Shown here: positions 18,660 to 44,242 of the stretch, one piece after another
Position numbering within the stretch: the stretch's first letter is position 1
How the letters are laid out: every line of letters begins with the position of its first letter
Source of the DNA: Sulfurovum lithotrophicum
Lineage (GTDB): Bacteria > Campylobacterota > Campylobacteria > Campylobacterales > Sulfurovaceae
Direction of reading: 5' to 3'
DNA length: 64,000 bases
Assembly (NCBI RefSeq): GCF_000987835.1
Contig: NZ_CP011308.1
Span: 1,922,001 to 1,986,000, forward strand
Translations under genes and position numbers: made by a program
Notes under the pieces: generated by a model
The model's input: only the letters and a program-made list of their open reading frames with translations
What the model was told of the DNA's origin: nothing
The model's database searches: none

Positions 18660-18766
18660 GATAAATTATAAAAATGATATTCGAATTAAGATTAAAATAT
18701 ATTGATGAAATAAAGAGTAAAGGACTCCTATTTGCTCAGGCAAGTGCCTGAAAGCATGCTTACGGT

Positions 18767-20778: not shown

Positions 20779-20802
20779 AATTACTCCTATTTAGTTTTTA
20801 TC

Positions 20803-24704: not shown

Positions 24705-24736
24705 TATAACTGCGGATAAGCAGAGGAATTCGTGTT

Positions 24737-27172: not shown

Positions 27173-27214
27173 TTGATATAAATCAAGAGTAATTTTATCC
27201 TATTTAACTATAAT
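27173..27214 (+). promoter_or_regulatory. Crp/Fnr-type promoter of the pentaheme cytochrome, with TAGGA-type motif
   Basis: Perfect box TTGATATAAATCAA (27173-27186), 22 bp, perfect -10 TATAAT (27209-27214). The predicted start is 27221. The spacer contains GAGTAATTTTATCCTATT (27187-27204), an 18-base match to 43785-43802. Confidence 0.8.
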
Positions 27215-27250
27215 CCAAAACTATTTTTCTCAATATATACAAGGCTATTC

Positions 27251-28390
27251 ATGAAAACGAAAGAAATACTTTTTTTAATGCTCTTTTTGACACTCTTCTC
27301 CCAGGCTTCACTTGAGAACACCACCTGCAAAAAATGCCATCCCATCATTACCGAGGAGTACCAAAGCTCCATGCACAGCAGGGCATCCATCTTCAAGGAC
27401 CCTGTACACAAGGCTGTATGGGACAAACATCCGGATAAAGCAAAAGGGCATTATAAATGTGCCAAGTGCCATACTCCTTCCGATCATGCACTGATGGCAG
27501 GCAAAACCAAACTGACCGACAATGCCGTACAGGAGAACGAACCGATCTCCTGTCAACAGTGCCACAGGATACAAAGCATAGAAAAACATGCCAAAGCGAA
27601 CAAAAATGTCATGAGCAAAAAAGAAAAATACTTCTTCTCAGCCGATCCAAAAAGAAAAGGCAAAGAGATAGAATTCAAAGAGGAAAGCTCTCTCTTCGGC
27701 CTGATGACAAAAACTGTCGGTTCCCCTTACCACAAAATAGACTACGGCAATGAGAATTTCTATAACGGCAATGTCTGCATGGGGTGTCACTCGCACAAAC
27801 AGAACGGCAAAGGCTTTACTGTCTGTGACCTTGAAGTGAAACAGAACGATTCCAAAGAGACCTGCATCACCTGCCATATGCCCAAGGTCAAAGGGACCTT
27901 TGTCAATCTGAAAGACAGTAAGACCCATGCATTCCATGGCGTGAACATCCACAAAATTACACCGGAACTGCTTTCAAAATACATAAAACTTTCTCTGAAC
28001 AAAGAAGCAAATGGATTCAGTGTCACTGTAAAGAATGAAGCTACACATACCCTCTTCCCTCAGCCGCTCAGGCTGAATCAGTTGAGAATCAACATAGAAA
28101 GGGACGGAAAGACCATCGAGCTCAAACCGGTAAACTTTATGAGGGTCATAGGCACAAACGGTAAACCTTCCATGCCGTGGCTTGCGACGGAAGTGCTGAA
28201 AGACACGACCATCAAGGCGCATGAAACACGCAAGGTGACATTTGATACTGCCTTGCAAAAAGGTGACAGTGTCGTTGTGAAGTTCGGATACTACATTGCC
28301 AATCCAAAAGCGGCCAAAAAGCTGGGTATTCAAGACCCATATGCCACAGAATTCATCATCCTGACCAAGAAAAGATTTGAAATAGAATAG
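27251..28390 (+). CDS. Periplasmic pentaheme cytochrome c
   Basis: 379 residues with a signal peptide (1 to about 19) and five heme motifs: CKKCH 26-30, CAKCH 70-74, CQQCH 101-105, CMGCH 176-180 and CITCH 205-209. The C-terminal 150 residues have no heme and look beta-rich. The N-terminal heme spacing recalls the cytochrome c554 / hydroxylamine-oxidoreductase-related group, but I cannot assign a family. It faces the NirC-nirJ operon and shares the Crp/Fnr-type promoter design, so a role in nitrite/NO reduction or electron transfer is plausible. Confidence 0.8.
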   Translation: MKTKEILFLMLFLTLFSQASLENTTCKKCHPIITEEYQSSMHSRASIFKDPVHKAVWDKHPDKAKGHYKCAKCHTPSDHALMAGKTKLTDNAVQENEPISCQQCHRIQSIEKHAKANKNVMSKKEKYFFSADPKRKGKEIEFKEESSLFGLMTKTVGSPYHKIDYGNENFYNGNVCMGCHSHKQNGKGFTVCDLEVKQNDSKETCITCHMPKVKGTFVNLKDSKTHAFHGVNIHKITPELLSKYIKLSLNKEANGFSVTVKNEATHTLFPQPLRLNQLRINIERDGKTIELKPVNFMRVIGTNGKPSMPWLATEVLKDTTIKAHETRKVTFDTALQKGDSVVVKFGYYIANPKAAKKLGIQDPYATEFIILTKKRFEIE

Positions 28391-28395
28391 TCATA

Positions 28396-28600
28396 CTACT
28401 TCCGTACACAGCTGTACGGAGGGTACAGTAAATAGATCAGCATTACCCAGAAAAACCCCAAAAACAATCCTTCTATCGCATCACTAAACCAGTGTACATT
28501 CATCCACTCTCAGCATCGGTCTATCAGTCAGGACATTTACGAGCATAAACAAAAATACCACAAGCCCTGTCAGAGAAAGGAAAATACTCCGGAGATATCT
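28396..28600 (-). pseudogene. Remnant of a PAP2-type phosphatase gene
   Basis: On the minus strand one frame reads LVVFLFMLVNVLTDRPMLRVD and, after a one-base shift, NVHWFSDAIEGLFLGFF and MLIYLLYPPYS, ending at TAG 28396. HWFSDAIEG resembles the C-terminal PAP2 motif. Only about 65 residues remain in two frames, with no start. The hairpin CCGTACA-CAGC-TGTACGG (28402-28419) lies inside it. Confidence 0.5.
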
Positions 28601-28603
28601 CTT

Positions 28604-29503
28604 CTATACTGTTTCATCCCGATTCTCTTCCAGGTGTTCCCGTGCGATCAGCCTGCCAAGCTCTATCAGCTCGTATGCTTTGTTGAATTCGTAAAAACCG
28701 CAGGCATTGTTCGGCACACCGATGATCATATCGGGAGCATACCCTGCCATTTTGCTCTCCATAATGGCATTTTGCATAATGTCGATCGTACGTCCCATTA
28801 TGTCGAACATATCCATCTCATCAAACCTGTCGGTTTTCTCTCTTGCAAATAGCTCTTCTGTCTTTTTTGCCATTTGCAAAAAGACCTCCTGCATACCGCT
28901 TGCTTTCTCCTGCTCTTTCCTGGGAACATCTATCTGGTATTTTTTGGAGATATTTGCGGAGAGGTTCACAGCGATCGTCAGCTGTGTATCATCCGCGATC
29001 GTAGGAGCGATAGGCAAAGGATTAAGCACCCCGCCATCTACCAGATGACGCTCCCCAAGCTGTTTTGGGGTAAAAATAGACGGTATAGCAATGGAAGCTC
29101 TGATGGCATCTATGAGCCTGCCTTTCTGCAGCCAGACCTCTTTTTGTCTGATCAGGTCCGTTGCCACAGCGGTAAATGCTATGGGAAGCTCTTCAATATG
29201 CACACCTCCTACCATCTCTTCGATCACGTCAAATACTTTCTCTCCCTGAATGATGCCTGTCCCGGTAAAAGAGAAATCGACCAGCTTTGCCACATCTATC
29301 AGGTCCAGTCCCAGTACCCACTCTTTATAGGCATCCAGTTTGCCACAGGCATACAGGCCGCCGATGAGCGCTCCCATGGAGGAACCCGAGACCGACCTGA
29401 TATCATAGCCATGTTTCAATAGTTCTTCTATGACACCGATATGCGCATACCCTCTTGCCCCACCGCTTCCGAGTACCAGCGAGATCGTTTTCTTATCAGC
29501 CAT
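28604..29503 (-). CDS. Patatin-like phospholipase, RssA-like
   Basis: About 299 residues from ATG 29503, chosen because AGGAG stands six bases before it and directly abuts the upstream ATG at 29509. Motifs: oxyanion GSGGARGYAHIG, nucleophile Ser in GSSMGAL and the catalytic Asp in VDGGVLNP. A Ser-Asp dyad acyl hydrolase, probably cytoplasmic. It is downstream of the efflux operon on the same strand, separated by about 50 bp. Confidence 0.87.
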   Translation of the reverse strand: MADKKTISLVLGSGGARGYAHIGVIEELLKHGYDIRSVSGSSMGALIGGLYACGKLDAYKEWVLGLDLIDVAKLVDFSFTGTGIIQGEKVFDVIEEMVGGVHIEELPIAFTAVATDLIRQKEVWLQKGRLIDAIRASIAIPSIFTPKQLGERHLVDGGVLNPLPIAPTIADDTQLTIAVNLSANISKKYQIDVPRKEQEKASGMQEVFLQMAKKTEELFAREKTDRFDEMDMFDIMGRTIDIMQNAIMESKMAGYAPDMIIGVPNNACGFYEFNKAYELIELGRLIAREHLEENRDETV

Positions 29504-29555
29504 GTTCATCTCCTATCCGAATATTGTATCCAAATCATCCCCGCAGGACAAAATG

Positions 29556-30638
29556 TCAGAACAGTTTTCCTATCTTCCTGAACCCGTACCAGTATAGCAG
29601 CACTCCCAGAAGCAGAACACCTCCAAAATAGGGTAAAAGATCGATAAACTCCGTGCCACGGAAGAAGATGCTCTCACTCCCCTCGATATAATAACGCAGC
29701 GGCGAAAAAAGTGAAAGAAACTGGAGTGCCGGATGCATGGCGTAGATCGGGGTCCAGGCACCGCTGAGAAAGATCAGCGGCATCATAATGATGATGGATA
29801 GCTGTGCTACCTGCATCGTACTTTTGGAAACGGCGGCAACGAAAAGGCCGATACCCGCGCTGGAAAAAGAGTAGAAGAATGTCAGCAGCATAAACGTCCA
29901 GAACGAGCCGTTCATCGGGGTATCGAATGCACCGAAGATGACAAAGCCCAGGGCCAGAAGCACACCGACCATCACGATCATTACCTGGGAAAGTGATTTG
30001 GCCAGGATGATCAGTTTGGGGTCGACCGGCATCAGCAGCATAATATCCCAGGTCCCCTCCTCTTTTTCACGTACGAAGACCACCGCTGTGAGGATGACTA
30101 TCAGCAAGGTGATGACGGAAAGCATCTCTGTCAATGCCATAAAGGAATGGTTGTCCGCATTCTGGTTGAAGAGTTTATGCGACTTGATGACGACGGGGAA
30201 ATTGGGCTTTGAAAAATCCATCACGATATTCTGAAGATAACCCAGTGTCGTAAAACTCTGGCTTGCAGCAGTCGCATCAAGAAGAAGATTGAGCTGTGCC
30301 TTTTTGCCCTGGCGGAAATCCTTTTCGAAATCCTGGTCAAAGAGAATGCCTACCAGTATTTCCTTATCAAAAATGGCACGGCTGAGCGCCTCCTGTGATT
30401 TGAAGCGTCGCGGGGGGAGGAACTCCGGTCTGTGCAGGCGGGAGAGGATCTTCTGGCTGATACCTCTTCCGGTATCATCCACATACCCAATCTTTACGTT
30501 CCGCGGGGTGATCTGTATCCCCTCGCCGGCAATGTAGATGTCTGCCGTAAACGAATAGAGCACCGCCGCAACCAGCCCAATGGAGCGCAGGAAACTCAGA
30601 ATCTCTTTACCGAACACCACCCAGAATACACGGCTCAT
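29556..30638 (-). CDS. ABC-2 type export permease (distal)
   Basis: 360 residues: one N-terminal transmembrane helix, a large extracytoplasmic domain (about 40-170) and five C-terminal helices, with MPLIFLSGAWTPIYAMHPALQ. This is the YbhR/YbhS type. It overlaps the preceding permease by 4 bp and pairs with it under the double ATPase YbhF-like protein. It is the last gene of the efflux operon. Confidence 0.88.
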   Translation of the reverse strand: MSRVFWVVFGKEILSFLRSIGLVAAVLYSFTADIYIAGEGIQITPRNVKIGYVDDTGRGISQKILSRLHRPEFLPPRRFKSQEALSRAIFDKEILVGILFDQDFEKDFRQGKKAQLNLLLDATAASQSFTTLGYLQNIVMDFSKPNFPVVIKSHKLFNQNADNHSFMALTEMLSVITLLIVILTAVVFVREKEEGTWDIMLLMPVDPKLIILAKSLSQVMIVMVGVLLALGFVIFGAFDTPMNGSFWTFMLLTFFYSFSSAGIGLFVAAVSKSTMQVAQLSIIIMMPLIFLSGAWTPIYAMHPALQFLSLFSPLRYYIEGSESIFFRGTEFIDLLPYFGGVLLLGVLLYWYGFRKIGKLF

Positions 30639-31753
30639 TTCAGCTCCTTCTTCAAAAGAGTACTACCCAGAACAAGCAGGAGTGTGGCATAGATGATGAG
30701 GATCCCGAGATATTCAACTGTCTTGGCGGAGGCGAGTCCTGTCCCGGAGAGAAAACAGTCATAGATAATATGGTTGAAATACATGACCGGGAAAAGATGC
30801 GCTTCAATGTAAGACTCACCGGCCATAGAAGAGATCGGCATCAGGATCCCCGAATAGAGAAACCCCGGAATGATCGTGATAATGATCGTAAGTACCACCG
30901 CAACAATCTGCTGCCTGGTGATAACCGATATCAGCATCCCGATGGAGAGACTGATAAGGATATAGATCTCGGCAGCAAACCAGTAGAGCATAAAACTCCC
31001 CCGAAACGGCACATCGAAAAGTTCCGTCGCCCAGAGAAAGAGAATGAAGATATTGAGTGAATGGAGCAGAAAGCCCGGTATCAGTTTCGCTGCAAGGAAC
31101 TCTCCCCTTCCCAAAGGGGAAGCATAAAAGTTGAATATCGTCCCCCTCTCTTTTTCCTTGACGATCATCAGTGCCGAGAGTATGGCTGGAGCCACAAGCA
31201 GTACCAGCCCCATCAGTCCGGGGACGATGGCATCTGCATCACGCATTGCCTGATTGAAGAGATTCCGGCTGTTGATGCTGATCATACCGCTTTGCCTGCC
31301 AAGCGATCCGCCTACGCTCTGAGCAGTATCGAGGATGACCCCCTGAACATAACTCTCCATCGTCATACCCCTGTTGGGAAAGGCACCGTCGACGAACACA
31401 CCTATCTCACTGTGCTGTCCATACAGAATACGTTTTTCGAACGAAGCAGGGATAATGACAATAATGTCGGCCTTTGCCTGCTTGATGCGATGCAGGGCCT
31501 CGGCTTCGCTCATCTGTGTGACCTTGGCGTTGAAATATTTGGAATGCTCGAATTTCGCTGTCAGCATTCTGGAAAAATGGCTGTGGTCGTTGTCGATGAT
31601 AAGCGTTCTTGCATGTGTCACGTCCATACGGATCCCGTAGCCAAAAAGCAGCATGATCATGCTGGGCAGCAGATAGACCATGATGATCAGCTTCGATCGG
31701 AACAGTTCAGTGAATTCTTTGAGCATATAGGCCTTGACAACGGAGAATTTCAT
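30635..31753 (-). CDS. ABC-2 type export permease (proximal)
   Basis: 372 residues with the same YbhR/YbhS-type layout as its neighbour: N-terminal helix (LIIMVYLLPSMIMLLFGYGI), extracytoplasmic domain, and a C-terminal bundle (LTIIITIIPGFLYSGILMPI). The two permeases are divergent enough to form a heterodimer. It overlaps the ATPase gene by 4 bp. Confidence 0.88.
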   Translation of the reverse strand: MKFSVVKAYMLKEFTELFRSKLIIMVYLLPSMIMLLFGYGIRMDVTHARTLIIDNDHSHFSRMLTAKFEHSKYFNAKVTQMSEAEALHRIKQAKADIIVIIPASFEKRILYGQHSEIGVFVDGAFPNRGMTMESYVQGVILDTAQSVGGSLGRQSGMISINSRNLFNQAMRDADAIVPGLMGLVLLVAPAILSALMIVKEKERGTIFNFYASPLGRGEFLAAKLIPGFLLHSLNIFILFLWATELFDVPFRGSFMLYWFAAEIYILISLSIGMLISVITRQQIVAVVLTIIITIIPGFLYSGILMPISSMAGESYIEAHLFPVMYFNHIIYDCFLSGTGLASAKTVEYLGILIIYATLLLVLGSTLLKKELK

Positions 31754-33390
31754 GATTCGCTCCTGTAGTAGCTCAGAAAGATATCTTCAAAGTTCCGGGC
31801 TTCGGGATGTTTGGCGTAGAGTGCTTTGACCGTATCATCTGCGATCTTCCTGCCCTGGCGCATCAGAACGACCCGGTCGCAATACTCCGCCTCACTCATA
31901 TAGTGTGTCGTGATCAGGATGGAGATTCCCCATGATATCTTGAGCCGGTGCAGCATCTCCCAAAACTGCGCTCTGGCGATCGTATCGACTCCCGAGGTCG
32001 GTTCATCGAGAAAGAGAATGACCGGTTCATGAAGCAGTGCCGCTGCTACTGAAAATCTCTGATTGATCCCCAGCGGCAGTTCACCGGGCAAATGCTCCAT
32101 ATACGCATCGAAACCAAGCTCCCGCGCATAGCGGTTGATACGTTTGATCGCTGTAGAGACAGGGATACGGTGCATATTGGCAAAATAGATCAGATTCTCC
32201 CGTACCGTCATATCTTTATAGAGGGCAAAATGCTGGCTGACATAGCCTATCTTCGCCTTGAGCACCTGGCGGTCATCACTGCTTCGGATACTTTTTCCCA
32301 GTAGCGTAAGTTCACCTTCATCAATAGGATAAAGCCCCAGCAGCATCTTCATAAAGGTGGTCTTGCCTGCACCGTTTGCTCCCAGAAGCCCCACGATCTC
32401 TCCGCCTCCCAGTCTCATATCGATATGATCGTTCGCGGTAAAGTCACCGAAACGCTTTGTCAGTCCCTTCACTTCCATCACAGTTTCGGGTATCTTCGTT
32501 TCACCTTCACGTGCATCTATCTCTATCTTTGGTAATGCACGTTTTTTCCTGAGTGCATTGACAAAAAAGAGCGCTTCGAGTGTCGGTTCGGCATGGGAAG
32601 AGGAGAGAACGTCGAGACTGTAGCTACGTTTGTCAAAGGTAAAGCAGTCACTCTGGGCATTTTCTTTTTCAGGACAGCCTCCCTCTTCAAAGGTATACTC
32701 CCTTACAGAATCTATGAGCTCCGGTACCGTTCCCCTGGCAATGATCTCACCTTCGTCAAAAAGCAGTACCCGGTCCATTTTGGCTGCTTCCTGCATATAG
32801 GCCGTACTGACCAGTACGATCGTCCCTTCTTCTTTGCGTATATTATCGAGGATCTCCCACAGTTCCAGACGGCTGAGCGGATCGACCCCGGTGGTGGGTT
32901 CATCGAGTATCAGCAGTTTGGGTCGGTGCAGAAGGGTACAGATAAGCGAGAGTTTCTGCATCATTCCGCCGCTGAGCTTGCCTGCCTGACGATTGGTAAA
33001 ATCCGAAAGACCCGCCATATGCAGAAGCTTCTGCCGATAGGTTTTGTACGAAGCATCCTGTCTGAGATTGCGAATATTCGCAAAGAACGATAAATGTTCT
33101 CCTACCGTAAGTGTCTCGTAAAGTACCAGACCAATCCCCTGCGGCATCAGTCCTATATACGGTTTGATCTTCTCCGCCTCTTTGGGTGAATGGTACACCT
33201 GTTCAAAATAGCTGATCTCCCCTTCAAAGCGGAGCACACCGGCAACAGCATGCATCAATGAACTCTTCCCTGCACCGTCCGCACCGATAAATCCGATAAT
33301 CTCTCCGGCATTGGCCTGAAGAGATGCTGATTTGATCCCGACCTGTTTTTTGTAGGAGACCTCTACATTTCTGACTTCAAGATCGGCCAT
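31750..33390 (-). CDS. Double ABC ATPase, YbhF-like
   Basis: 546 residues containing two fused nucleotide-binding domains. The first has GADGAGKSS (36-44), LSGGMMQK and LLILDEPTTGVD. The second (from about 305) has GANGAGKTT, a degraded signature (LGINQRFSVAAALLHEP) and LFLDEPTSGVD. It powers the two ABC-2 permeases as in YbhFSR-type drug exporters. It overlaps the MFS gene by 14 bp. Confidence 0.92.
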   Translation of the reverse strand: MADLEVRNVEVSYKKQVGIKSASLQANAGEIIGFIGADGAGKSSLMHAVAGVLRFEGEISYFEQVYHSPKEAEKIKPYIGLMPQGIGLVLYETLTVGEHLSFFANIRNLRQDASYKTYRQKLLHMAGLSDFTNRQAGKLSGGMMQKLSLICTLLHRPKLLILDEPTTGVDPLSRLELWEILDNIRKEEGTIVLVSTAYMQEAAKMDRVLLFDEGEIIARGTVPELIDSVREYTFEEGGCPEKENAQSDCFTFDKRSYSLDVLSSSHAEPTLEALFFVNALRKKRALPKIEIDAREGETKIPETVMEVKGLTKRFGDFTANDHIDMRLGGGEIVGLLGANGAGKTTFMKMLLGLYPIDEGELTLLGKSIRSSDDRQVLKAKIGYVSQHFALYKDMTVRENLIYFANMHRIPVSTAIKRINRYARELGFDAYMEHLPGELPLGINQRFSVAAALLHEPVILFLDEPTSGVDTIARAQFWEMLHRLKISWGISILITTHYMSEAEYCDRVVLMRQGRKIADDTVKALYAKHPEARNFEDIFLSYYRSES

Positions 33391-34531
33391 AATATCTCAC
33401 CGTAAACAGTAACATAAGCAGTGACGTTCCTGCCAGAGAAAAGAGCAAAGAACTCTGCATACCGAAATGTTCCCATATCATACCGCTGATATAGGCCCCG
33501 ACCGCACCGAACAGTGCCACCCCGGCATAAAAGACACCGTAGACTGAACCTCTGTTATCCGCATGTTCTGAAATGAAAGCCCGGTTGGCATTGAGTGAAG
33601 CAACTGTAAAAAGGCCGAGAAAGGCATAAGCGACCCAAGTGAAGATCGGATCATGAAGGTACAAAAGGCCCTGTGCAGCTACACCGCAGACATAGGCGAA
33701 CAGTAAAACATGTTTGGCGCCTATCCTGTCGATGAATATACCGAACGTATAGCTTGTCAATGTCTGGGTGGCGGTGGAAACGACAAAAAGGAGAGGAATA
33801 AGGGCAGTGGCGATACCCACCTCTTTTGCCTGCATCGTAAAAAAGGCATCGCTGAAAACAAATAAGAGAAAAAGAAAATAGAAGAGCAGAGAGACAATGG
33901 TCTGCTTGTCTCTCTTCGTCAACATAAATGTCTGCTTCGAAGGTATCACCGACTTGGGAATATCCCGTACAAAGAAGGCAACGATGATCAACCCTATGAT
34001 TCCGGGTATCAGTGTTGCATAAAAAACAGTCCGTATCACTGTTTCACTTTGGCCGAAATACCATAGCAGCCCAAAAAGGATCAGTGTACCGCTGAGTTCT
34101 CCGGCAATGTCCATTGTTTTATGAAATCCAAATGTTTTTCCCGAAGCATTGGCTTTGCTGTAGCTTGAGATCATAAGATCCTTGGGGGCAGAACGCATTC
34201 CTTTACCCAAACGCTCGAACGCTTTGAGCGCCGCCACGCTTTTATAGCCATGACTGAAGCCTATCAGCGGCTTGCTCAGTGCCGAAAGTGCATACCCTCC
34301 GACGACTAGAGGCTTGACAATGCCGTACCAGTCGGAAATGTATCCCGAGAGCAGACGAAGCGCATAGGAGACAAAAGTGGCGATGGCAACGATGATCCCC
34401 AGTTTGTCCATTCCTTGATGCAGTACAACCACGACAAAAATAGGCAGGATGGGATTGATCATCGCAGACGCCATATCGGTAAAGAAACTTACCCACCCCA
34501 GCATTACCACATTTTTGTCGATATTTTTCAT
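33377..34531 (-). CDS. MFS transporter
   Basis: 384 residues, about twelve transmembrane helices, with an MFS loop motif (SGYISDWYG) after the second helix and FERLGKGMRSAPKDLMI. It resembles drug/metabolite exporters. It is translationally coupled on both sides within the efflux operon, which is an unusual place for a third transporter class. Confidence 0.87.
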   Translation of the reverse strand: MKNIDKNVVMLGWVSFFTDMASAMINPILPIFVVVVLHQGMDKLGIIVAIATFVSYALRLLSGYISDWYGIVKPLVVGGYALSALSKPLIGFSHGYKSVAALKAFERLGKGMRSAPKDLMISSYSKANASGKTFGFHKTMDIAGELSGTLILFGLLWYFGQSETVIRTVFYATLIPGIIGLIIVAFFVRDIPKSVIPSKQTFMLTKRDKQTIVSLLFYFLFLLFVFSDAFFTMQAKEVGIATALIPLLFVVSTATQTLTSYTFGIFIDRIGAKHVLLFAYVCGVAAQGLLYLHDPIFTWVAYAFLGLFTVASLNANRAFISEHADNRGSVYGVFYAGVALFGAVGAYISGMIWEHFGMQSSLLFSLAGTSLLMLLFTVRYYGRS

Positions 34532-35685
34532 AACACCGGTATCTCATCGAGTGATCTGGGTAATCCTTTGCCGTCTATGGAGATGACTCCGATGGCGGGA
34601 ATACCCAGTTTCAAAAGCGGGTCGACCTTCAATGGTTTCAAATGAACGGCAAACACACGCTGTATCCTGTCGCTTCGTACGCTCACTTCTTTGGGTGTGA
34701 ACTCTGCCTGCTGTGCGACATTGACCACTTTGGCTTCTATGGGCCTGTTCGGGTAGGCATCGAGAAAGATCACCGCTTTGTCCCCTATTTTGATCCTGCC
34801 GTTCTGCAGGGTGTCCACAAAGATCTTCAGATACAGGGAACGGGGATCTATCAGGGTTGCTACAGGCATTCCTGCACCCACCACTTCACCGACATTGGCG
34901 ATCTTTTCCACCGTATAGCCGTCTATAGGGGATCTCAGCGTTAATTCAGCAATGATCGATTCTACCTGAGCCTTCGATGCGTCCAATGCTTTGATATTTT
35001 CCTTGAACGCTTCAATGGAAGATTCGATGGAAAGTATCTGCTTTTGGGAAGCTTGCGCTTCCTTGACCGCGCTTTGGGCCACAGAGATAGCGGCTTCGAT
35101 CTCATCACGCTGCAGCAGCAGTGCGTCATACTTGTCCTGTTCCGTATCGACTTTCAGTTTTGAAAGTTCAAATGCATGGGAATCGATCGCTTTGCTTTTA
35201 TAGAGAAACACGGAGCGCTTATGGTCCCTTTTTGCCTGTTCCAATACTTTTTGCTGGGCTTTGATATTCTCTTCAAGGACTTTCAGCTTCGTCTGTGTCG
35301 ACTTCAACTGCTCCTGCGCCTTTTTCAGTCCGGCAGGAATGGTCGTTCTGGAGATCTCCAGTTCGATCTGTTTGGCTTCGAGCGTTTTTTTCTGCGCGCT
35401 GATCTGCGCCTCTATCTGTGCTTTCTGCGATTCATACTCTTTGCTTCCAAGAATGGCGACGATCATTCCTTTTTTAACGACCGTACCGTCATCCACCGTT
35501 ATTTTTTCAACACGTCCCGGATATTTGGTGTTGAGGTTGGTCAGATCACCGTCGATCCGACCTGTACCCTCTACAAGATTTTCCGGAAGCACTTTAGGGT
35601 GCAGTTTTGCATAAATCATCACCCCCGCAATCACTATGAGTATAGCTGCAACGATACCTATCCAGTATTTTTTGATGATTTGCAT
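34528..35685 (-). CDS. HlyD/EmrA-type membrane fusion protein
   Basis: 385 residues: one N-terminal transmembrane anchor (WIGIVAAILIVIAGVMIYA), a biotinyl-lipoyl-like domain, a long helical hairpin (about 85-230, rich in EAQISAQKKTLEAK-type repeats) and a beta-barrel region. It links an inner-membrane exporter (ABC or MFS) to the outer membrane, probably via the TolC-like gene at 39.8 kb. Confidence 0.9.
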   Translation of the reverse strand: MQIIKKYWIGIVAAILIVIAGVMIYAKLHPKVLPENLVEGTGRIDGDLTNLNTKYPGRVEKITVDDGTVVKKGMIVAILGSKEYESQKAQIEAQISAQKKTLEAKQIELEISRTTIPAGLKKAQEQLKSTQTKLKVLEENIKAQQKVLEQAKRDHKRSVFLYKSKAIDSHAFELSKLKVDTEQDKYDALLLQRDEIEAAISVAQSAVKEAQASQKQILSIESSIEAFKENIKALDASKAQVESIIAELTLRSPIDGYTVEKIANVGEVVGAGMPVATLIDPRSLYLKIFVDTLQNGRIKIGDKAVIFLDAYPNRPIEAKVVNVAQQAEFTPKEVSVRSDRIQRVFAVHLKPLKVDPLLKLGIPAIGVISIDGKGLPRSLDEIPVL

Positions 35686-35696
35686 TTTTTTCCTTT

Positions 35697-35942
35697 TTAG
35701 TGTGTCGGCTCTTCCATCGTATAGAGCGTTTCTTTCATGGCATCGGTCTGTACCTCGATGACTCCAGCTGCATCCTGCAAGCCCTGGTTGTAATAATAGG
35801 GGCCGATCTCCCTACCAAAGAATTCCAGAAGGAATTCCGCATCGAACTGCCCTATCTCCTCTCCGAACTCACGATTGAAGTAGGCTTTGACCTTATGGAC
35901 AAGATGTGCTTTTTGTTCAGGTGAAAATACTATATTTTCCAC
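35697..35942 (-). CDS. DUF2164 family protein
   Basis: 81 residues. The motifs FDAEFLLEFFGREIGPYYYNQGLQDA match DUF2164, whose function is unknown. The gene overlaps the RND pump by 13 bp and lies 11 bp upstream of the HlyD gene. Why it is inside an efflux operon is unclear. Confidence 0.85.
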   Translation of the reverse strand: MENIVFSPEQKAHLVHKVKAYFNREFGEEIGQFDAEFLLEFFGREIGPYYYNQGLQDAAGVIEVQTDAMKETLYTMEEPTH

Positions 35943-38900
35943 TCTTCTATCTTCCCTTCATACCATTTCCTCAACCACTGATCCACAGGATTTATCATTC
36001 TGTAAATTACCGGCACGACCAGAAGTGTCAGCACCATCGAACTCAAAAGTCCTCCGATGACCGCGATCGCCATAGGTGCTTTCGTTTCACTTCCCAGAGA
36101 GTGGCTCAATGCCAGAGGAAGCATGGCGAAGATCATCGCGATCGTCGTCATCAGGATGGGTCGGAGTCTCTTTTCACCCGCTTCCAGCAATGCAGCATTG
36201 GCATCTTTTCCTCTGGCCACAGCCTCGTTGGCAAAGTCCACCAGCAGGACGGCATTCTTGCCGACCATTCCCATGAGCAGCATGAAACCGATCATGACGA
36301 ACAAAGAGAAGTGCTGTCCGCTCAAAAAGAGTGCGATCATCACCCCGATGATACTCAGCGGCAGCGCCACCATGATGATGACCGGCTGTATGAGCGACTC
36401 GTACAGGATCGCCAGGATGATGAACATCAGGATCACGGAGAGTCCCAACGCCGCGCCGAATGCCTTGTTGGTCTTGACCATCTCTTCGGCAAATCCGGTG
36501 AATTTATAGCTTACACCCAGCGGCAGCAGTTTGTCGATACCCTCTTTGGTATAGTTGACCGCTCCTCCAAGATCAAGCCCGAACAGATCGGAATAAACCG
36601 TTACCTGCCGCTGCCTGTCGTAGTGGTAGATCGCCGCGATCGACTTGGTATTGACGAAATTGACCAGCCCATCAAGATAAACCAGGTCTCCGTTGGCCGC
36701 TCTCAGCTGTATCTTCTTGAGGTCTTCAAGGCTGACCCTTTCCGAGTCCGGGAAACGCAGTGTGATATTGTACTGTTTTCCCTTTTCCTCAAAGTAGGAA
36801 ATTTCCAGGTCACTTGAGAAAGCAATGGAGATCGCCTGGGCAATCTGCGATGCGGAGATACCCAGACGGTTGGCATTCTCTCTTAAAATATTGATATCGA
36901 TCTGCGGTTTCCCCTCATCCATGTTCGTATCGACATCGACAAATCCCTTTTTCTTTTCAAGATAGGCGATCAGTTTGTTTTTAGCCACACCGAGCGCTTT
37001 GAACGAATCGGATGTCAGGACGATCTGGTAGGGTACCGATACCCCCGCCCCTTTGATATTGGGAATGGCCGCCGCAGTGATGTACATCTTTTTCTGGTAG
37101 GGTTTGAACTGCTCCCTGAAATTCTGGATGATCTGCTCCTGGCCGATGCTCCTCTTGCTTTTGGGTACCAGTTTGACATAGATGAGTGCCTTGTTCTTCT
37201 CTTTGACCGAGTTATACCCGACGCTCAACGTGGTAAAAAGGACATTTTTGTCTTTTCTGACCAGATTCTCTATGGCTTTGGACTCTCTGATCATCTCTTC
37301 GAGAGAAATTCCCGGCTGCGCACGCAGTTTGATCTCGAATTCCGCCTTGTCCTCTTTGGGGATGAAATCCATTCCGATCTTGGGAAAGAGGCTCAGAGAA
37401 CCCACAAAAATCGCAATGATAACTATCAGGGTACTCACCTTGAAGCGCAAAACAAACCTCAGCGTAGCATCATATATCTTTTCCATCGCTTTGAAGAACG
37501 GCTCCGTAATATTATAGAACCGGCTCTCTCCCTTATGCAGCACCCTGGCACTCAGGCTCGGCATGAAAGTCATAGCAACGGTATAGGAAATAATTACGGC
37601 GAATCCGACCGTCATCGCAAAGCTCTCAAAGAACTTCCCGACAATACCGCTCATGTTCGCTACAGGGATGAACACCGCAAGCAGCATTGCCGAGATCGCC
37701 AGAATGGCAAAGGCCATCTCCTTGACCCCTTCGACCGCTGCTTCGAACTTGCCCATACCCGCTTCCATTTTCTTGTAAATATTCTCCAATACGACAATGG
37801 CGTCATCGATGATGATACCGATGGAAAGCGTCAGCCCGATCAGCGTCATTTTGTTCAGGTCGAAGCCCATGAAGTTCATCAGCGCGATCGTACCCATGAT
37901 CGAAATGGGAATGGAGAGGGCCGAAACGACCGTAATAGTGAAGTTCCGCAAAAAGCCGAAGATGATGATAACCGCAAGGAATGCACCGTACACCAGGTCA
38001 AACTCCACATCTTTGAGGGAGTGGATAATGAACGGCGTCGTATCCTGTAGTATCTCTACACCATACTTGTCCCCTGCCATTTTCTGAAGCCCCGGGAGCG
38101 CCTCTTTGACACGCTTTACGATCTCGAGCGTATTGGTCCCGGAAATTTTCTGCACCTCGAGCATCACACCGGGGACCCCGTTGTACGAAGCGTAACTGTC
38201 CGGGTCACTGAGCGTATCTTCCACCTTTGCGACATCTTTGAGACGAATGTCATTTTTAATAATGATATTTCTGAGCTCCTCAACGCTCAGGGCGTCCGCC
38301 TTGGTCTTGAGGATAAACTCTTTGGTTTTGGTGATCAGTTTTCCGCCACCGATCTTAACATTTTCATGTTCGACAATACTGTTGAGCTCTTTTATCGTGA
38401 TACCGAACTTGTTCAGCATCCTGATATTCGGCAGGATCTTGATCTCTCTGTCGCGGTACCCGATGATGTTGATAGCTCCCACACCGTTGATCTTCTGCAG
38501 GGAGGGCTTGACCTTCTCATCTGCAAAGAGCATCAGATTCTTGATAGTGTCTTTTTTGGCGGTCAAAAAGACATTGATCACCGGTGCTCCGCCGATATCA
38601 AGTTTACTCACCAGCGGTGTTTTGGCATCTTTGGGAAGCACGACAGCAGAGACTTTGTCACGCACGTCATTGGTCGCTTCATTGATGTCACGCTCCAAAA
38701 AGAACTTGACCATAACGACTGAAGCACCCTCCGAAGAGGTGGAAGTGATGGCATCCACGCCTCCGATGCGAGAGATGGCCTCTTCGATCTTGTCCGTTAC
38801 CTGCGACTCAACCGTGCTCGCTTCCGCTCCCGGATAGATGGTCTTGATGGTAACCATAGGGAAATCAACATTGGGGTAAAGAGCTGCGGGCATACTTTTG

Positions 38901-38980
38901 AAACTCAGCCATCCGAAGATCACTAGTGTAACAACATACATCAGTGTCGCGATGGGCCTGTTTATGGCTAATTTATACAT
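35930..38980 (-). CDS. RND-family efflux pump, inner-membrane subunit
   Basis: 1016 residues with the AcrB/HAE1 layout: TM1 (MYKLAINRPIATLMYVVTLV), two large periplasmic loops and two six-helix blocks. Helix 4 carries the proton-relay aspartates in GIIIDDAIVVLENI. ETKAPMAIAVIGGLLSSMVLTL precedes the C-terminus. It exports drugs, bile-salt-like compounds or lipophiles by proton antiport. The substrate is unknown. Confidence 0.93.
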   Translation of the reverse strand: MYKLAINRPIATLMYVVTLVIFGWLSFKSMPAALYPNVDFPMVTIKTIYPGAEASTVESQVTDKIEEAISRIGGVDAITSTSSEGASVVMVKFFLERDINEATNDVRDKVSAVVLPKDAKTPLVSKLDIGGAPVINVFLTAKKDTIKNLMLFADEKVKPSLQKINGVGAINIIGYRDREIKILPNIRMLNKFGITIKELNSIVEHENVKIGGGKLITKTKEFILKTKADALSVEELRNIIIKNDIRLKDVAKVEDTLSDPDSYASYNGVPGVMLEVQKISGTNTLEIVKRVKEALPGLQKMAGDKYGVEILQDTTPFIIHSLKDVEFDLVYGAFLAVIIIFGFLRNFTITVVSALSIPISIMGTIALMNFMGFDLNKMTLIGLTLSIGIIIDDAIVVLENIYKKMEAGMGKFEAAVEGVKEMAFAILAISAMLLAVFIPVANMSGIVGKFFESFAMTVGFAVIISYTVAMTFMPSLSARVLHKGESRFYNITEPFFKAMEKIYDATLRFVLRFKVSTLIVIIAIFVGSLSLFPKIGMDFIPKEDKAEFEIKLRAQPGISLEEMIRESKAIENLVRKDKNVLFTTLSVGYNSVKEKNKALIYVKLVPKSKRSIGQEQIIQNFREQFKPYQKKMYITAAAIPNIKGAGVSVPYQIVLTSDSFKALGVAKNKLIAYLEKKKGFVDVDTNMDEGKPQIDINILRENANRLGISASQIAQAISIAFSSDLEISYFEEKGKQYNITLRFPDSERVSLEDLKKIQLRAANGDLVYLDGLVNFVNTKSIAAIYHYDRQRQVTVYSDLFGLDLGGAVNYTKEGIDKLLPLGVSYKFTGFAEEMVKTNKAFGAALGLSVILMFIILAILYESLIQPVIIMVALPLSIIGVMIALFLSGQHFSLFVMIGFMLLMGMVGKNAVLLVDFANEAVARGKDANAALLEAGEKRLRPILMTTIAMIFAMLPLALSHSLGSETKAPMAIAVIGGLLSSMVLTLLVVPVIYRMINPVDQWLRKWYEGKIEEWKI

Positions 38981-38989
38981 CTGCCTGTC

Positions 38990-39709
38990 CTACTTCGCAT
39001 CGGGAAGAAGAATATACCCGTCCCCAAAAAGTCCTGGTGTAAAGCCTTCCGCTTCTATCTCCGCTTTTATTTTTCTGTTGGCATCGTTCGCATAGGGATA
39101 GACCTTGCTGATCTTTCCGGTATACACAGTGTTGTCCCCGTCTACGCTGTACCTGAACGTCAGGCCGGGTTTGAGCACTTTCCAGTATTTCTGGTCAACG
39201 GCAAGTACCAGTTTTCTTTTTTTCAGGCTTTGTATCTTCATCACGGTTCGTATCATGGCGCCGGAGACCACATCTCCCACTTCCACGCTTTTTTCATAGA
39301 TCACACCGTCAAAAGGCGCTTTGAGCTGCGTCTTGTCCAGCAGGGCCTGTTGGTATGCCACCTGTGCTTTACTGTGCTCGTACTTAAATGCGTATGTATC
39401 GAATCTTGAGGCATCGACCAATTTCTTGACCTTTACCTGTCGTTCATAGTCTCTTTTGGCATACTTCATCGCGATCGTTGAAATATCTAGTGCCGCTTTG
39501 AGGTCTGAATTATCCAGCTCGGCGAGAATATCTTCTTTTTTAACCACCGAAGCCACATCGACATTCACCTTTTCCACCGTTCCGGTGGTAGTGAACGCCA
39601 GGTCCGCATGCTGTGCAGCCTCCACATTGAATGTCGCATAGATCTCTTCTGCCTGAAGGCTCAGTGCCAACAGCATCAAACTCAGTAGTATTCTTTTAAG
39701 ACTCGGCAT
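38990..39709 (-). CDS. RND periplasmic adaptor (membrane fusion protein)
   Basis: 239 residues from ATG 39709, preceded by GGGAGG; an upstream ATG at 39745 has no ribosome site. A signal peptide (ILLSLMLLALSLQA) is followed by lipoyl and short hairpin domains and APFDGVIYEKSVEVGDVV. It is shorter than AcrA (about 390), with a reduced hairpin. It lies 9 bp upstream of the pump gene. Confidence 0.87.
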   Translation of the reverse strand: MPSLKRILLSLMLLALSLQAEEIYATFNVEAAQHADLAFTTTGTVEKVNVDVASVVKKEDILAELDNSDLKAALDISTIAMKYAKRDYERQVKVKKLVDASRFDTYAFKYEHSKAQVAYQQALLDKTQLKAPFDGVIYEKSVEVGDVVSGAMIRTVMKIQSLKKRKLVLAVDQKYWKVLKPGLTFRYSVDGDNTVYTGKISKVYPYANDANRKIKAEIEAEGFTPGLFGDGYILLPDAK

Positions 39710-39787
39710 TGAGTGCCTCCCTGTACTGAATTTCACATAAATCATTTAGTGATTGATTGCATTGCATTTTAACGCTTGTAATTCTTG

Positions 39788-41035
39788 TCATCGTATGAAC
39801 TCCTTGGGGTCTTTCCCCGCATAATAGTAATAGATCGATTTCTTCACTTCGTAATCGTACACCGATTCTTTGTATCGTGACTCTGCCAGTGTTTTGGCTG
39901 CAAGCGCGTCAAGGTAGGCAATGTCGTCTACCAACCCCACTTCAAATTTCTGTTTGAGCACTTTGTAGGTACTTGCCGCTGCCTTGAGTGCACTTTTGGC
40001 ACTCTTCATCTTCTCTCTGGTTGTACGTAGGGTCTGTCTGGCAAGGTTGAAGTTCATACGCTGCTCTTTTTTTGCCTGATCCAGCCGTGAAAGCAGTGCC
40101 AGTTTCTGGTACTTCACCGCTTCACTCTCCTTGCTCATTTTCCCCATATCAAACAGTCTCATATTCACAGAAACCCCCACTTTATTCTGGTGGTCGATCA
40201 AAAAGGCTTCCCCGCCGCCGCCCGGCATAGGGACAAGATCGTCAAAATGTGATTTGTGATACGTATCGGAAAGATTGACCTGCGGCATATAGCCCGCATC
40301 GATCGCTTTGGCATTTTCGCCTATGGCATTGGCATTTGCCTGAAGGATCTTGATCGTCTCGAACCACTCAAAATGCACATTTTTAGGTTCCAGAAAATAA
40401 TTGCGTCTCAAATGCCACGCCGGCAGTCCGCTGATCAGCTTCAGGTTCTCTTCACTGGTCTCAATGGCCAGTTTCGTATTTTCAATAGTATACTGATTCC
40501 CCTCATAGACAGACTGAAGCTTGTCGACCTCTTCCTGTGTCGCCAGGCCTGTCAGTTTGAACTTTTTGACACGCTCTATCTGTGCCTTGAGTTCTTTGGC
40601 ACGCTCCTGTAGGGCATGTAGTGTTGCTTTGAGACTTTGAATGCCATAGTAATGACGTGCTATTTCAAGGGTAATGCTCTTTTCAAACGCGGTTTTTTCG
40701 AACAGGGAAGCTTTATGTTCAAAACCCTTGCTTCGCAACAAGGCATCTTTCCTGCCGCCATCATAAAGATTCAGATTCGCAGAAATAAAAGCATTGCCTG
40801 TCTCTCCCGGACTGACGATATATTTGGGTGACTGAAAACTGTAGTCAGCCCCAACATCCACCGTCGGCCAGTAGGCACTTTTTGCTGCTTCCACCTCCTG
40901 CTCTTTTGATTTGATAGTCAACTTTTTAGCCTGGATCATTCCGTTGGTCTTACCTGCACTCTCAATAAAGTTCTTCAAACCGTAACTCTGTGCCAGCACA
41001 AACAGCGGCAGGCATAACAGCAGTAATACTTTCAT
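39788..41035 (-). CDS. TolC-family outer-membrane channel
   Basis: 415 residues: signal peptide (LLLLCLPLFVLA) and two internally repeated helical regions typical of outer-membrane efflux proteins (SKEQEVEAAKSAYWPTVDVGADY and QMNVS-like strands, here NKVGVSVNMRLFDMG). It overlaps the TetR gene by 4 bp and probably serves the RND and ABC/MFS systems in the operon. Confidence 0.88.
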   Translation of the reverse strand: MKVLLLLCLPLFVLAQSYGLKNFIESAGKTNGMIQAKKLTIKSKEQEVEAAKSAYWPTVDVGADYSFQSPKYIVSPGETGNAFISANLNLYDGGRKDALLRSKGFEHKASLFEKTAFEKSITLEIARHYYGIQSLKATLHALQERAKELKAQIERVKKFKLTGLATQEEVDKLQSVYEGNQYTIENTKLAIETSEENLKLISGLPAWHLRRNYFLEPKNVHFEWFETIKILQANANAIGENAKAIDAGYMPQVNLSDTYHKSHFDDLVPMPGGGGEAFLIDHQNKVGVSVNMRLFDMGKMSKESEAVKYQKLALLSRLDQAKKEQRMNFNLARQTLRTTREKMKSAKSALKAAASTYKVLKQKFEVGLVDDIAYLDALAAKTLAESRYKESVYDYEVKKSIYYYYAGKDPKEFIR

Positions 41036-41616
41036 TGGTTCTCCTTGATAATCATATTTAGCAAACGATCGATCTCCTCTTTCACATCCAGGCTTTTCAA
41101 ACGTGAATCTACGACCAATCCTGTTGCAAAAAGCATCAGTGAGCTTGCTGAAGCAGACATTTGGGCATTCAATTCTCCTGAACGTACCCCTGCCTCAAGG
41201 ATATTGTTCAAGATATTGATGAAATCTTCCCTGCATGTTTCACTGAAGGAGAGCATCTCTTTCGTTTCCTGCATCAGTGAAATAGCAAGAAACTCTTTGT
41301 AGATATTCAGATGTTTACGTGCTATTTCATTTTCGAACAGCAGATAGAAAAAATGAAACAGCTTTTCTCTAGTAGACAAATCTGACCGGCTAACCTCACT
41401 AAGTCTCTTTTCATGCTCAATGATAAACGTCCGGATGATCTCAAAAACGATATCTTCCTTGTTCTCAAAATACTCGTAGATCGTTCCCTTGCCCACACCG
41501 GCAGTTTTGGCGATCTGTGAAATGGTCAGCTCGCCAATGCCGTGCTTCAGAAGCAATTCCCGGCAGGAGAGCGCTATGTTTCTGCGTTTTTCTTCTTTAT
41601 TGACTATAATTGCCAT
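41032..41616 (-). CDS. TetR-family regulator of the efflux operon
   Basis: 194 residues with the N-terminal helix-turn-helix ELTISQIAKTAGVGKGTIYEYFENKEDI. It is the first gene of the operon running to 29556, so it probably represses its own operon through the palindrome at 41632-41644. AAGGAAAATA precedes the ATG. The ligand is unknown. Confidence 0.92.
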   Translation of the reverse strand: MAIIVNKEEKRRNIALSCRELLLKHGIGELTISQIAKTAGVGKGTIYEYFENKEDIVFEIIRTFIIEHEKRLSEVSRSDLSTREKLFHFFYLLFENEIARKHLNIYKEFLAISLMQETKEMLSFSETCREDFINILNNILEAGVRSGELNAQMSASASSLMLFATGLVVDSRLKSLDVKEEIDRLLNMIIKENQ

Positions 41617-41631
41617 TATTTTCCTTTTGAC

Positions 41632-41644
41632 TGACCGTCGGTCA
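41632..41644. promoter_or_regulatory. TetR operator
   Basis: TGACCG-T-CGGTCA is a perfect palindrome inside TTGACTGACCGTCGGTCAATT, 16 bp upstream of the tetR start. TGACC/GGTCA half-sites are usual for this class of efflux repressors. Confidence 0.75.
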
Positions 41645-41744
41645 ATTAAATTATAGTAACAAGCTTCTTAAAAGAAAATAAATCTGCTTTCTGACTCATT
41701 GAAATACCAACCAACGCCGGTATTTCATCTATGTTCATAGGGGA

Positions 41745-42827
41745 TTATTTTATATCGTAGGCAACAGGATCACCCTCAAGAGTTTTCAAAAATGCTATGA
41801 CATCCTCTATCTGTTCAGGGGTAAATTCATTTCCAAGCTGATACTTGCTCATGATACGTACCGCCTCTTCCAGTTTGTCAACAGAGCCATTATGAAAATA
41901 GGGTGCGGTTCTTGTAACATTTCTCAGGATCGGTACACGGAACTTCTGTTCACCATCCTTCCCCAGGAATCCACCTTCGTTAATGAAAGGAAAGGGGCTC
42001 TCTCTCAGGCGGATATCGGGTTCAAACCACAGTCCGATGTATTCGGAAACATAGCGTCTGAGAGGGAATTTCTGCATGCTCTGTCCACCGACAGACATCC
42101 CCGAGTGACATCCCTTGCACCCTTTGGTAAGAAAGAGTGTCATGCCACGTTTTGCCTGCGCTGAAATGGCAGTGTCATCACCTTCAAGAAAACGGTCGTA
42201 GGCACCTCGCGTAAGCAAAGTACGTTCATAGGCACCGATGGCTTTGCGTACCTGCTCGAAGGTGATATTGCCCTCATTGAAGACCTGTTTAAACTTTGCG
42301 AGATATTCAGGATGGCTGTTCAATCTGCTTTCCACCTCCTGTGGTGTCATATGCATCTCGAACGGTGCCTGTATAGGCCCGCCTGCCTGTTCCTCAACAT
42401 CTTTGGCACGTCCGTCCCAAAACTGTGCTTTTGCCAATGCGGCATTCAGAACCGTTGGAGAATTCAAATGGTGGGGGTTTGGCTGTCCGCGTACACCGAT
42501 TGCTGTGGGCAGATTGTCATCTCCGCCTTCACTCAGCATATGACAGGAAGCACAGGAAACTGTTTTATCATCAGACAACAGTGTGTCATTAAAAAGTTCC
42601 TTCCCTAAAGCGATCTTCTCTTTACTCATTGGGTTTTCCGGATTATCCACCACTTTCAAAAGTGCATCATAACTTTTAGGAATCGGCTTAAAGGTCGTTG
42701 AAAGTGCGCGATCCCTCAACTGTGCATCTATCAATGCAGGGGTTACCTTTTTAATAAAAAATGGTAAGGAAAATATAATGGTTATTACCAACAGGGTAAT
42801 AGTAACAGGGTGCATAAGTTTCTTCAT
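41745..42827 (-). CDS. Di-heme cytochrome c peroxidase (MauG/CcpA family)
   Basis: 360 residues: N-terminal membrane anchor or uncleaved signal (VTITLLVITIIFSLPFFI), CASCH at 92-96 and CKGCH at 237-241. The PPYFHNGS-like TAPYFHNGS and QFWDGRAKDVEEQA blocks are typical of bacterial CCP. It reduces hydrogen peroxide in the periplasm with cytochrome c electrons. It follows the SDR gene by 13 bp and is probably co-transcribed with it. Confidence 0.92.
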   Translation of the reverse strand: MKKLMHPVTITLLVITIIFSLPFFIKKVTPALIDAQLRDRALSTTFKPIPKSYDALLKVVDNPENPMSKEKIALGKELFNDTLLSDDKTVSCASCHMLSEGGDDNLPTAIGVRGQPNPHHLNSPTVLNAALAKAQFWDGRAKDVEEQAGGPIQAPFEMHMTPQEVESRLNSHPEYLAKFKQVFNEGNITFEQVRKAIGAYERTLLTRGAYDRFLEGDDTAISAQAKRGMTLFLTKGCKGCHSGMSVGGQSMQKFPLRRYVSEYIGLWFEPDIRLRESPFPFINEGGFLGKDGEQKFRVPILRNVTRTAPYFHNGSVDKLEEAVRIMSKYQLGNEFTPEQIEDVIAFLKTLEGDPVAYDIK

Positions 42828-42840
42828 AACGTATCCTTTA

Positions 42841-43653
42841 TTAAATACCGAAAGTCTCTTTTACTTTCTGTTCAAATGCTTTATCGTTCAACTCTCTTCT
42901 CAGAGGCACAAAGGTTTCTGCTTCTGCACCCACAGGTACAAAAATATCTGCATTTTCATCTTCAATAATCATCTTGACCGCATCAGCAATAGGCTGCGGA
43001 TCAGGTCCGTCATCGATCGCCGTTGCCACGATCGGTACAAAATATGCCACCAGTTCTTTATACGGTGACTCTTCAGACGTTGTGGCTGCATTCGCAACCA
43101 GGCCCTCTTTGACAAAACTCGTACCGAAAAGCCCGGACTGAATAGAGTGTACTCTGACATTGTACGGTAATGTCTCAAAACGTAATGAGTCTACGATTCC
43201 CTCTACAGCATATTTACTTGCATTGTAATGTGCCAGGAGCGGTAATCCCATTTTACCCAAAAATGAAGAGATATCAATGATGACTCCTGACTTGGCTGCT
43301 CTCATGTGAGGCAATACTGCTCTGGTCGCTTTAATCAGTCCAAAAACATTGACATTAAACTGGTCGAACATCTCTTCATCGGTTCCATCTTCAACTGTTG
43401 AAAGCAGGCCATACCCTGCATTGTTGACAAGTACATCTATCTTTCCTTCATTTTGAATGATGGTCTCAACTGCCTGCTGAATCGACTCGGTATCGGTCAC
43501 ATCCAGATACACTGGTTTCAAATTTTCTTTTGCTTCCATACTCTCTGCTTTTCTGCTCCCTGCATAGACAATATAGCCGTTCTGTGCAAGAAACTCCGAT
43601 GTTCTTTTACCCATACCGGAACTCGCTCCTGTAATCAACACTACTTTTGACAT
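42841..43653 (-). CDS. Short-chain dehydrogenase/reductase, paralogue 1
   Basis: 270 residues with TGASSGMG (nucleotide site), NNAGYG, DISSFLGK and YNASKYAVEG (catalytic Tyr-X3-Lys). It closely resembles the SDR at 45177-45992, for example in NVNVFGL and SSFLGKMGLPL. The substrate is unknown. Its promoter carries a pair of AraC-type direct repeats. It heads a two-gene operon with the di-heme peroxidase. Confidence 0.88.
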   Translation of the reverse strand: MSKVVLITGASSGMGKRTSEFLAQNGYIVYAGSRKAESMEAKENLKPVYLDVTDTESIQQAVETIIQNEGKIDVLVNNAGYGLLSTVEDGTDEEMFDQFNVNVFGLIKATRAVLPHMRAAKSGVIIDISSFLGKMGLPLLAHYNASKYAVEGIVDSLRFETLPYNVRVHSIQSGLFGTSFVKEGLVANAATTSEESPYKELVAYFVPIVATAIDDGPDPQPIADAVKMIIEDENADIFVPVGAEAETFVPLRRELNDKAFEQKVKETFGI

Positions 43654-43684
43654 TTTGTATCCTTTTTATAATTTTTATAATTTC

Positions 43685-43755
43685 AGTATATAGGAAGAGA
43701 GACGAAGAATCAAGCTGTTTTTAGCACAAAAAGAATTTTCTTTTAGCACAAAAAG
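43685..43755 (-). promoter_or_regulatory. SDR1-peroxidase promoter with AraC-type direct repeats
   Basis: TTTTAGCACAAAAAG occurs twice, identically (43719-43733, 43741-43755), 22 bp apart or two helical turns. They lie just upstream of -35 TTGATT (43708-43713) and -10 TATACT (43685-43690, 17-bp spacer, minus strand). This is the usual layout of an AraC-family activator site. The AraC gene at 44249-45163 is the natural candidate. Confidence 0.65.
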
Positions 43756-43779
43756 GTTTTTTTGATAAATAATCATTTA

Positions 43780-43802
43780 AATAGGAGTAATTTTATCCTA
43801 TT
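43780..43802. promoter_or_regulatory. TAGGA-N9-TCCTA motif, upstream copy
   Basis: AATAGGA-GTAATTTTA-TCCTATT has 7-base inverted arms. The 18 bases 43785-43802 are identical to 27187-27204. It directly abuts the Crp/Fnr box at 43804. Confidence 0.6.
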
Positions 43803-43803
43803 A

Positions 43804-43845
43804 TTGATCCAGATCAATTTTTTATGTATTTCCTTGAGCTATATT
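43804..43845 (+). promoter_or_regulatory. Crp/Fnr-type promoter of the 43907 cytochrome
   Basis: Perfect box TTGATCCAGATCAA (43804-43817), 22 bp, -10 TATATT (43840-43845). The predicted start is 43852, leaving a 55-nt leader. Confidence 0.75.
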
Positions 43846-43862
43846 TCGCATAAGTTTTTAAT

Positions 43863-43881
43863 TAGGAGTATTTTTATCCTA
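43863..43881. promoter_or_regulatory. TAGGA-N9-TCCTA motif, leader copy
   Basis: TAGGA-GTATTTTTA-TCCTA lies 11-29 bases after the predicted transcription start of the cytochrome gene, so a bound protein would block or modulate elongation. Confidence 0.5.
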
Positions 43882-43906
43882 TTAAAATAAAAAAGAAAGG
43901 TTTTTC

Positions 43907-44242
43907 ATGAAAAAAACACTATTACTTATATTTTTACTGGGTACATCACTTTTTGCAGATGTAGAGAAAGGAAAAGCTGTTTTTGCTGCCAATTGCGCCA
44001 TATGTCATACTGTTAATGGAGGAAAGGCTTTGGGACCAGATATGAATTTAGTCTCTTATACCAGACATAAAGAAGAAATTACAGCTTATGCGAAAGACCC
44101 TTATTCTTTATACAAAAAGTTTGGTTACTCTGCCAATGCTATGCCGACACTTCCTTTGGAAGATCAGGAGTTCAAAAATGTCGCGGATTACATCTCTTCT
44201 TTACAACCCTTCAAAAAATGGATGATCAAAAAAAAGAAATAA
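43907..44242 (+). CDS. NirC-like monoheme cytochrome c, second copy
   Basis: 111 residues: signal peptide to about residue 17, CAICH at 30-34, probable Met ligand in NAMPTLPL, and a basic tail WMIKKKK. It resembles the cytochrome at 26605-26928. It could donate electrons to a cd1 nitrite reductase or to the neighbouring di-heme peroxidase. It converges with the AraC gene with a 6-bp gap. Confidence 0.87.
   Translation: MKKTLLLIFLLGTSLFADVEKGKAVFAANCAICHTVNGGKALGPDMNLVSYTRHKEEITAYAKDPYSLYKKFGYSANAMPTLPLEDQEFKNVADYISSLQPFKKWMIKKKK

Follow-up and report, generated by a model that had tools for sequence, protein, structure and literature searches.

In Escherichia coli, the Rrf2-family regulator IscR autoregulates isc via type-1 motifs (PMC4055776) and represses nap (PMC8139620), and its type-1 consensus is ATASYYGACTRWWWYAGTCRRSTAT (PMC6599224). 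The reported IscR regulon of Caulobacter crescentus comprises Fe-S genes and respiration (cytochromes cb and bd; FixK) and overlaps with that of Fur (PMC11475020). In NsrR of Streptomyces coelicolor, the acidic ligand is Asp8, alongside three cysteines from one subunit (PMC5411485). We found no description of an Fe-S/Rrf2 regulon of this kind in Campylobacterota in the open-access papers searched, and Cj0883 of Campylobacter jejuni was listed in 2022 among the factors without a known regulon (PMC9426514).

In a 64-kb window of a Sulfurovum genome (the window being the whole stretch of DNA analyzed) and elsewhere in that genome, we observed a recurrent palindrome. It very probably serves as operator for an IscR/NsrR-like member of the Rrf2 family, which would control its own gene along with Fe-S assembly and iron uptake, defence against peroxide, and respiration. 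The Sulfurovum motif has the same 25-bp length and the same 13-bp core, GACTAWWWTAGTC, as the IscR type-1 site, whereas its arms read AAWTAR instead of ATASYY. The candidate regulator resembles E. coli IscR in family, predicted autoregulation and likely Fe-S assembly targets. It differs in that its gene lies outside an isc operon (opposite rpsO) and in that its likely targets are nifSU, sufB and cytochromes. The joining of Fe-S genes with respiration is shared with C. crescentus IscR, but the motif and the regulator context are different.

The palindromic unit and its enrichment

An initial annotation of this DNA had reported that the 18-mer GAGTAATTTTATCCTATT occurs identically at 27187 and 43785, and almost identically at 43866-43883. 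The sequence agrees: there is no further exact copy within the window, and the third copy, GAGTATTTTTATCCTATT, carries one mismatch. The inverted core proposed at the same time, TAGGA-N9-TCCTA, is present without mismatch at 43782-43800 and 43863-43881, but at 27184 the right arm alone is intact (CAAGA...TCCTA; two mismatches). Moreover, this core was not above chance when the window was scanned with up to two mismatches (18 matches versus 22 expected), and genome-wide, with at most one mismatch, it was rarer than its reversed control (46 versus 90). TAGGA-N9-TCCTA alone was therefore rejected as the motif, being without enrichment in window or genome.

Many genome matches of the short core share a symmetric centre rich in A/T, flanked on both sides by A/T. 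Genome-wide counts, made by pattern scans and from the stretches around sites, gave 13 matches to the 19-mer palindrome TAGGAGTAWWWTACTCCTA versus 2 for its reversed control. The 25-mer palindrome AAWTARGASTAWWWTASTCYTAWTT gave 20 sites versus 0 in the 2.2-Mb genome, which is also the genome on which this pattern was refined, so that held-out tests are the decisive ones. The true unit is thus a 25-bp palindrome, AAWTARGAsTAWWWTAsTCYTAWTT. A held-out matrix, trained on 14 genome sites beyond the window and with the rrf2 site left out, scored seven window sites above 11 (18638, 18709, 20768, 24683, 27181, 43779 and 43860), the next best match reaching 6.5; ten random windows yielded a single match above 8 in total, or about 0.1 per window. 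All seven sites lie at promoters or gene starts. Two belong to napA and three to the two c-type cytochromes, while a crp/fnr-family gene and a small operon whose last gene is SufT/PaaD-like have one each.

The weaker forms previously noticed before the crp/fnr-family gene and napA are recovered by the held-out matrix (24683 and 18638), which adds the copy at 20768 and, for napA, a stronger site at 18709. The concern that weak copies might be ribosome sites applies to 20768, which holds a ribosome site and an ATG, but not to the other sites, which lie elsewhere; nor is the 25-mer randomly spread, given its genome-wide counts. A site at 48590 was assigned no target, as it coincides in part with the end of a reading frame and the neighbouring gene has no family.

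The candidate regulator, its likely targets and competing readings

The genome contains two Rrf2-family genes. The candidate regulator is a 132-aa protein encoded at genome positions 576111-576506 on the minus strand, 1.35 Mb from the window. A site located 30 bp before its start codon overlaps the −10/+1 region, three bases after TATAAT. In 40/40 named loci, mostly from Sulfurovum but also from Nitratifractor and other Campylobacterota, the best matrix match fell 16-48 bp before the rrf2 start codon with scores of 12.6-30.2, whereas 0.4% of shuffled upstream regions exceeded 10. The candidate therefore has an autoregulatory type of operator at its own promoter, as IscR does, and Rrf2 would repress its own gene through it. 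From position and co-occurrence, we infer that the Rrf2 protein binds the motif.

The protein belongs to the Rrf2 family according to PF02082 (101 bits; cut-off, 30) and TIGR00738 (102.7; cut-off, 73.3). Its best specific NCBIfam match is the Xanthomonas-type SUF-system regulator (TIGR02944), with which it shares sufB among the likely targets, but the score of 65.7 bits lies below the cut-off of 110.65. The curated IscR model TIGR02010 scored 54.5 against a cut-off of 207.55. Cys91, Cys98 and Cys106, spaced CX6CX7C, are kept in 71/71 homologues and Glu8 in 17/17, and these four residues probably hold an Fe-S cluster, the acidic residue occupying the same position 8 as in NsrR. A histidine at the place of IscR H107 is absent, and with it the Cys3-His ligand set. 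Since neither the curated IscR model nor this ligand set fits, we file the protein as an Rrf2-family member working like IscR. An IscR-like, Fe-S-sensing regulator is the best reading overall. Its nearest solved relatives are RsrR (structures 6hsd and 6y45), IscR and NsrR; in a profile search, the match to NsrR (PDB 5n07) was weaker than that to IscR.

Outside the window, two sites 78 bp apart precede nifS, with nifU behind it, and a site lies before each of the Fe-S assembly genes sufB, mrp and a NifU-domain gene. Other genes preceded by a site include feoB (iron uptake); ahpC, tpx (a thiol-peroxidase-like redoxin) and a desulfoferrodoxin (oxidative defence); and ccoN. Sites also adjoin genes for a TonB receptor (iron uptake), a ResB-like protein, a formate-dehydrogenase-like enzyme and acetyl-CoA synthetase. 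Operators at Fe-S assembly genes (nifS-nifU, sufB, mrp and the NifU domain) are a further property expected of an IscR. We read the set as one of Fe-S and iron homeostasis together with oxidative defence and respiration, and not of nitrite/NO alone. By acting at these sites, Rrf2 would control genes for Fe-S assembly and for iron uptake as well as those of peroxide defence and respiration.

The initial annotation had proposed the site of a second regulator, with a symmetry unlike that of Crp/Fnr and lying next to Crp/Fnr boxes or −10 elements, those of cytochrome genes and napA included. Our data support this proposal but not the nitrite or NO specificity suggested with it, because the genome-wide set extends to Fe-S assembly, iron, peroxide defence, respiration and the regulator's own gene. 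For the same reason we consider it unlikely that the motif belongs to a dedicated nitrite/NO regulator such as an NsrR-type denitrification repressor, even though sites lie at napA, the cytochromes and a crp/fnr gene in a nap/haem-d1 neighbourhood and the candidate is NsrR-like in its three cysteines and acidic residue 8. No NO-detoxification gene was found among the targets annotated, which cover part of the sites and operons, and to that extent the candidate's target set would differ from that of S. coelicolor NsrR.

Because its binder is deduced from position and co-occurrence, the motif could in principle be bound by another protein, for example the second Rrf2 (at 801 kb) or some other factor. 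This is improbable: the second Rrf2 has neither a matching site in the scans nor the cysteine triad, and several family members have a single Rrf2 match yet carry the motif. A Fur or PerR box would explain the presence of sites at feoB, the TonB receptor, ahpC, tpx and desulfoferrodoxin, which are typical targets of these regulators. Fur and PerR boxes are A/T-rich, however, unlike the GGA/TCC arms with 25-bp spacing seen here, and the motif is also found at nifS, sufB and rrf2, making this identity very improbable. That the motif is a chance, ribosome-site or −10-like sequence, as the unenriched loose core and the 20768 copy with its start codon might suggest, is scarcely credible in view of the 20 versus 0 count for the full palindrome, its held-out conservation in 40/40 and 27/27 loci and the position of most sites away from ribosome sites.

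The Rrf2 operator reading was also considered across the phylum. In the family to which Sulfurovum belongs, the motif was counted 115 times versus 5 for the control in 14 genomes. It was not enriched in a second family, which looks like Helicobacteraceae (16 versus 25 for the control; 74 genomes, tallied by hand). Among 249 genomes of the phylum, 64 without any Rrf2 match and ten with weak ones all fall in this second family, where no close Rrf2 exists and the best matches are at 1e-4 to 1e-7. The own-promoter sites of rrf2 homologues are clear in the Sulfurovum family but weak or missing in many homologues from other families. The phylum-wide claim is consequently weaker than the Sulfurovum claim, because beyond the own family the motif is counted in small numbers and a clear site is lacking at many of the rrf2 homologues. 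The Campylobacter homologue of the candidate is likely Cj0883c.

Promoter organization in the window

Table 1. Positions of candidate operators, associated promoter elements and target genes in the 64-kb window
Feature	Position	Strand	Details
napA, periplasmic nitrate reductase, likely target gene	15609..18446	-	NCBIfam NF010055; start codon inferred
Proximal napA operator (candidate)	18638..18662	.	Score 11.1; just downstream of minus-strand TATAAT
Distal napA operator (candidate)	18709..18733	.	Held-out score 18.0
Ambiguous operator holding ribosome site and ATG of gene 20437-20778(-)	20768..20792	.	Score 25.1
Weak operator (candidate) upstream of crp/fnr-family gene 23939-24640(-)	24683..24707	.	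Score 18.1
Crp/Fnr-type box TTGATATAAATCAA	27173..27186	+	
Operator (candidate) AATCAAGAGTAATTTTATCCTATTT	27181..27205	.	Held-out matrix 23.7; overlaps Crp/Fnr box and −35 region
Predicted −10 TATAAT	27209..27214	+	29.5 bp from box centre; predicted from sequence
Multihaem cytochrome c, 379 aa, likely target gene	27251..28390	+	Pfam PF14522/PF13435
Distal operator (candidate) AAATAGGAGTAATTTTATCCTATTA	43779..43803	.	−73 to −49 from predicted transcription start; held-out matrix 25.9; conserved in orthologues
Crp/Fnr-type box TTGATCCAGATCAA	43804..43817	+	Centre 43810.5 = −41.5; abuts distal operator directly
Predicted −10 TATATT	43840..43845	+	29.5 bp from box centre; predicted from sequence
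Proximal operator (candidate) AATTAGGAGTATTTTTATCCTATTA	43860..43884	.	+9 to +33; held-out matrix 24.5; conserved
Small c-type cytochrome, 111 aa, likely target gene	43907..44242	+	Pfam PF00034

At 43.8 kb, the elements follow one another in the order distal operator, Crp/Fnr box, TATATT, predicted transcription start (43852), proximal operator and ATG (43907), and the predicted box-to-−10 distance is class-II promoter spacing. With the held-out matrix, the motif was found upstream of the cytochrome c gene in 27/27 readable orthologue loci. In at least 10 orthologue promoters, two operators recur at a spacing of about 80 bp and a Crp/Fnr box adjoins the distal member of the pair; in another orthologue group the sites are 32-34 bp apart. 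At 43.8 kb, the two operators would flank a class-II promoter, with the distal operator directly against the box and its proximal counterpart just past +1. At 27.2 kb, where the predicted transcription start is 27221, the box, the operator and TATAAT are interleaved, and an operator placed on the box and the −35 region would oppose the Crp/Fnr activator. This site is conserved in some relatives and missing in others. Given this promoter anatomy, repression would occur by occlusion at both cytochrome promoters, and the regulator probably represses respiratory promoters whose activator is a Crp/Fnr protein. As with the cluster itself, we infer this sign of regulation from sequence.

At napA, most close relatives retain the tandem pair with its spacing of 71-72 bp. 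The site at 24683 is found at the same place in four relatives, with scores of 7-18, and an operator in front of a gene of the crp/fnr family suggests that the two regulators cross-talk. The 20768 copy is likewise conserved in four relatives, but coding constraint confounds this conservation with that of the start codon, and the copy is therefore ambiguous. The third gene of its operon (18767-19150) encodes a SufT/PaaD-like Fe-S protein (SUF_assoc), while the genes at 19196-20431 and 20437-20778 matched nothing in Pfam, nor in NCBIfam within the cut-off used for that scan, E ≤ 1e-8. Crp/Fnr-type boxes (TTGAT-N4-ATCAA) are themselves enriched in the window, with 16 matches versus 5 expected at up to one mismatch; seven are perfect, and together the boxes span 12427-62513.

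A broader proposal, which we put forward tentatively and hold to be somewhat less than an even prospect, is that a distinct subfamily of Rrf2 proteins carrying a Cys3-Glu cluster acts as the Fe-S-status master regulator of Campylobacterota outside Helicobacteraceae, gating Crp/Fnr-activated respiratory promoters of Sulfurovum via paired flanking operators. The Rrf2 operator reading would provide a major phylum, whose bacteria live in vents, sediments and the gut, with an Fe-S regulon in which operator and regulator are both defined, as well as a simple, testable promoter logic tying Fe-S status to nitrate and cytochrome respiration.

Two other features of the 43.8-kb region were observed. In the closest relative, the cytochrome c promoter has about 50 extra bases between the proximal operator and the ATG, and the ends of this segment form an inverted repeat (attactcccca...tggggagtaat). 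In the Sulfurovum window, the sequence TTAGCACAAAAAG occurs twice as an exact direct repeat (43721 and 43743, 22 bp apart, covering 43721-43755), with no third exact copy in the window. The repeat lies upstream of both the distal operator and a divergent SDR gene; an AraC-family gene is located at 44249-45163, and the repeat may be the site of the regulator that it encodes.
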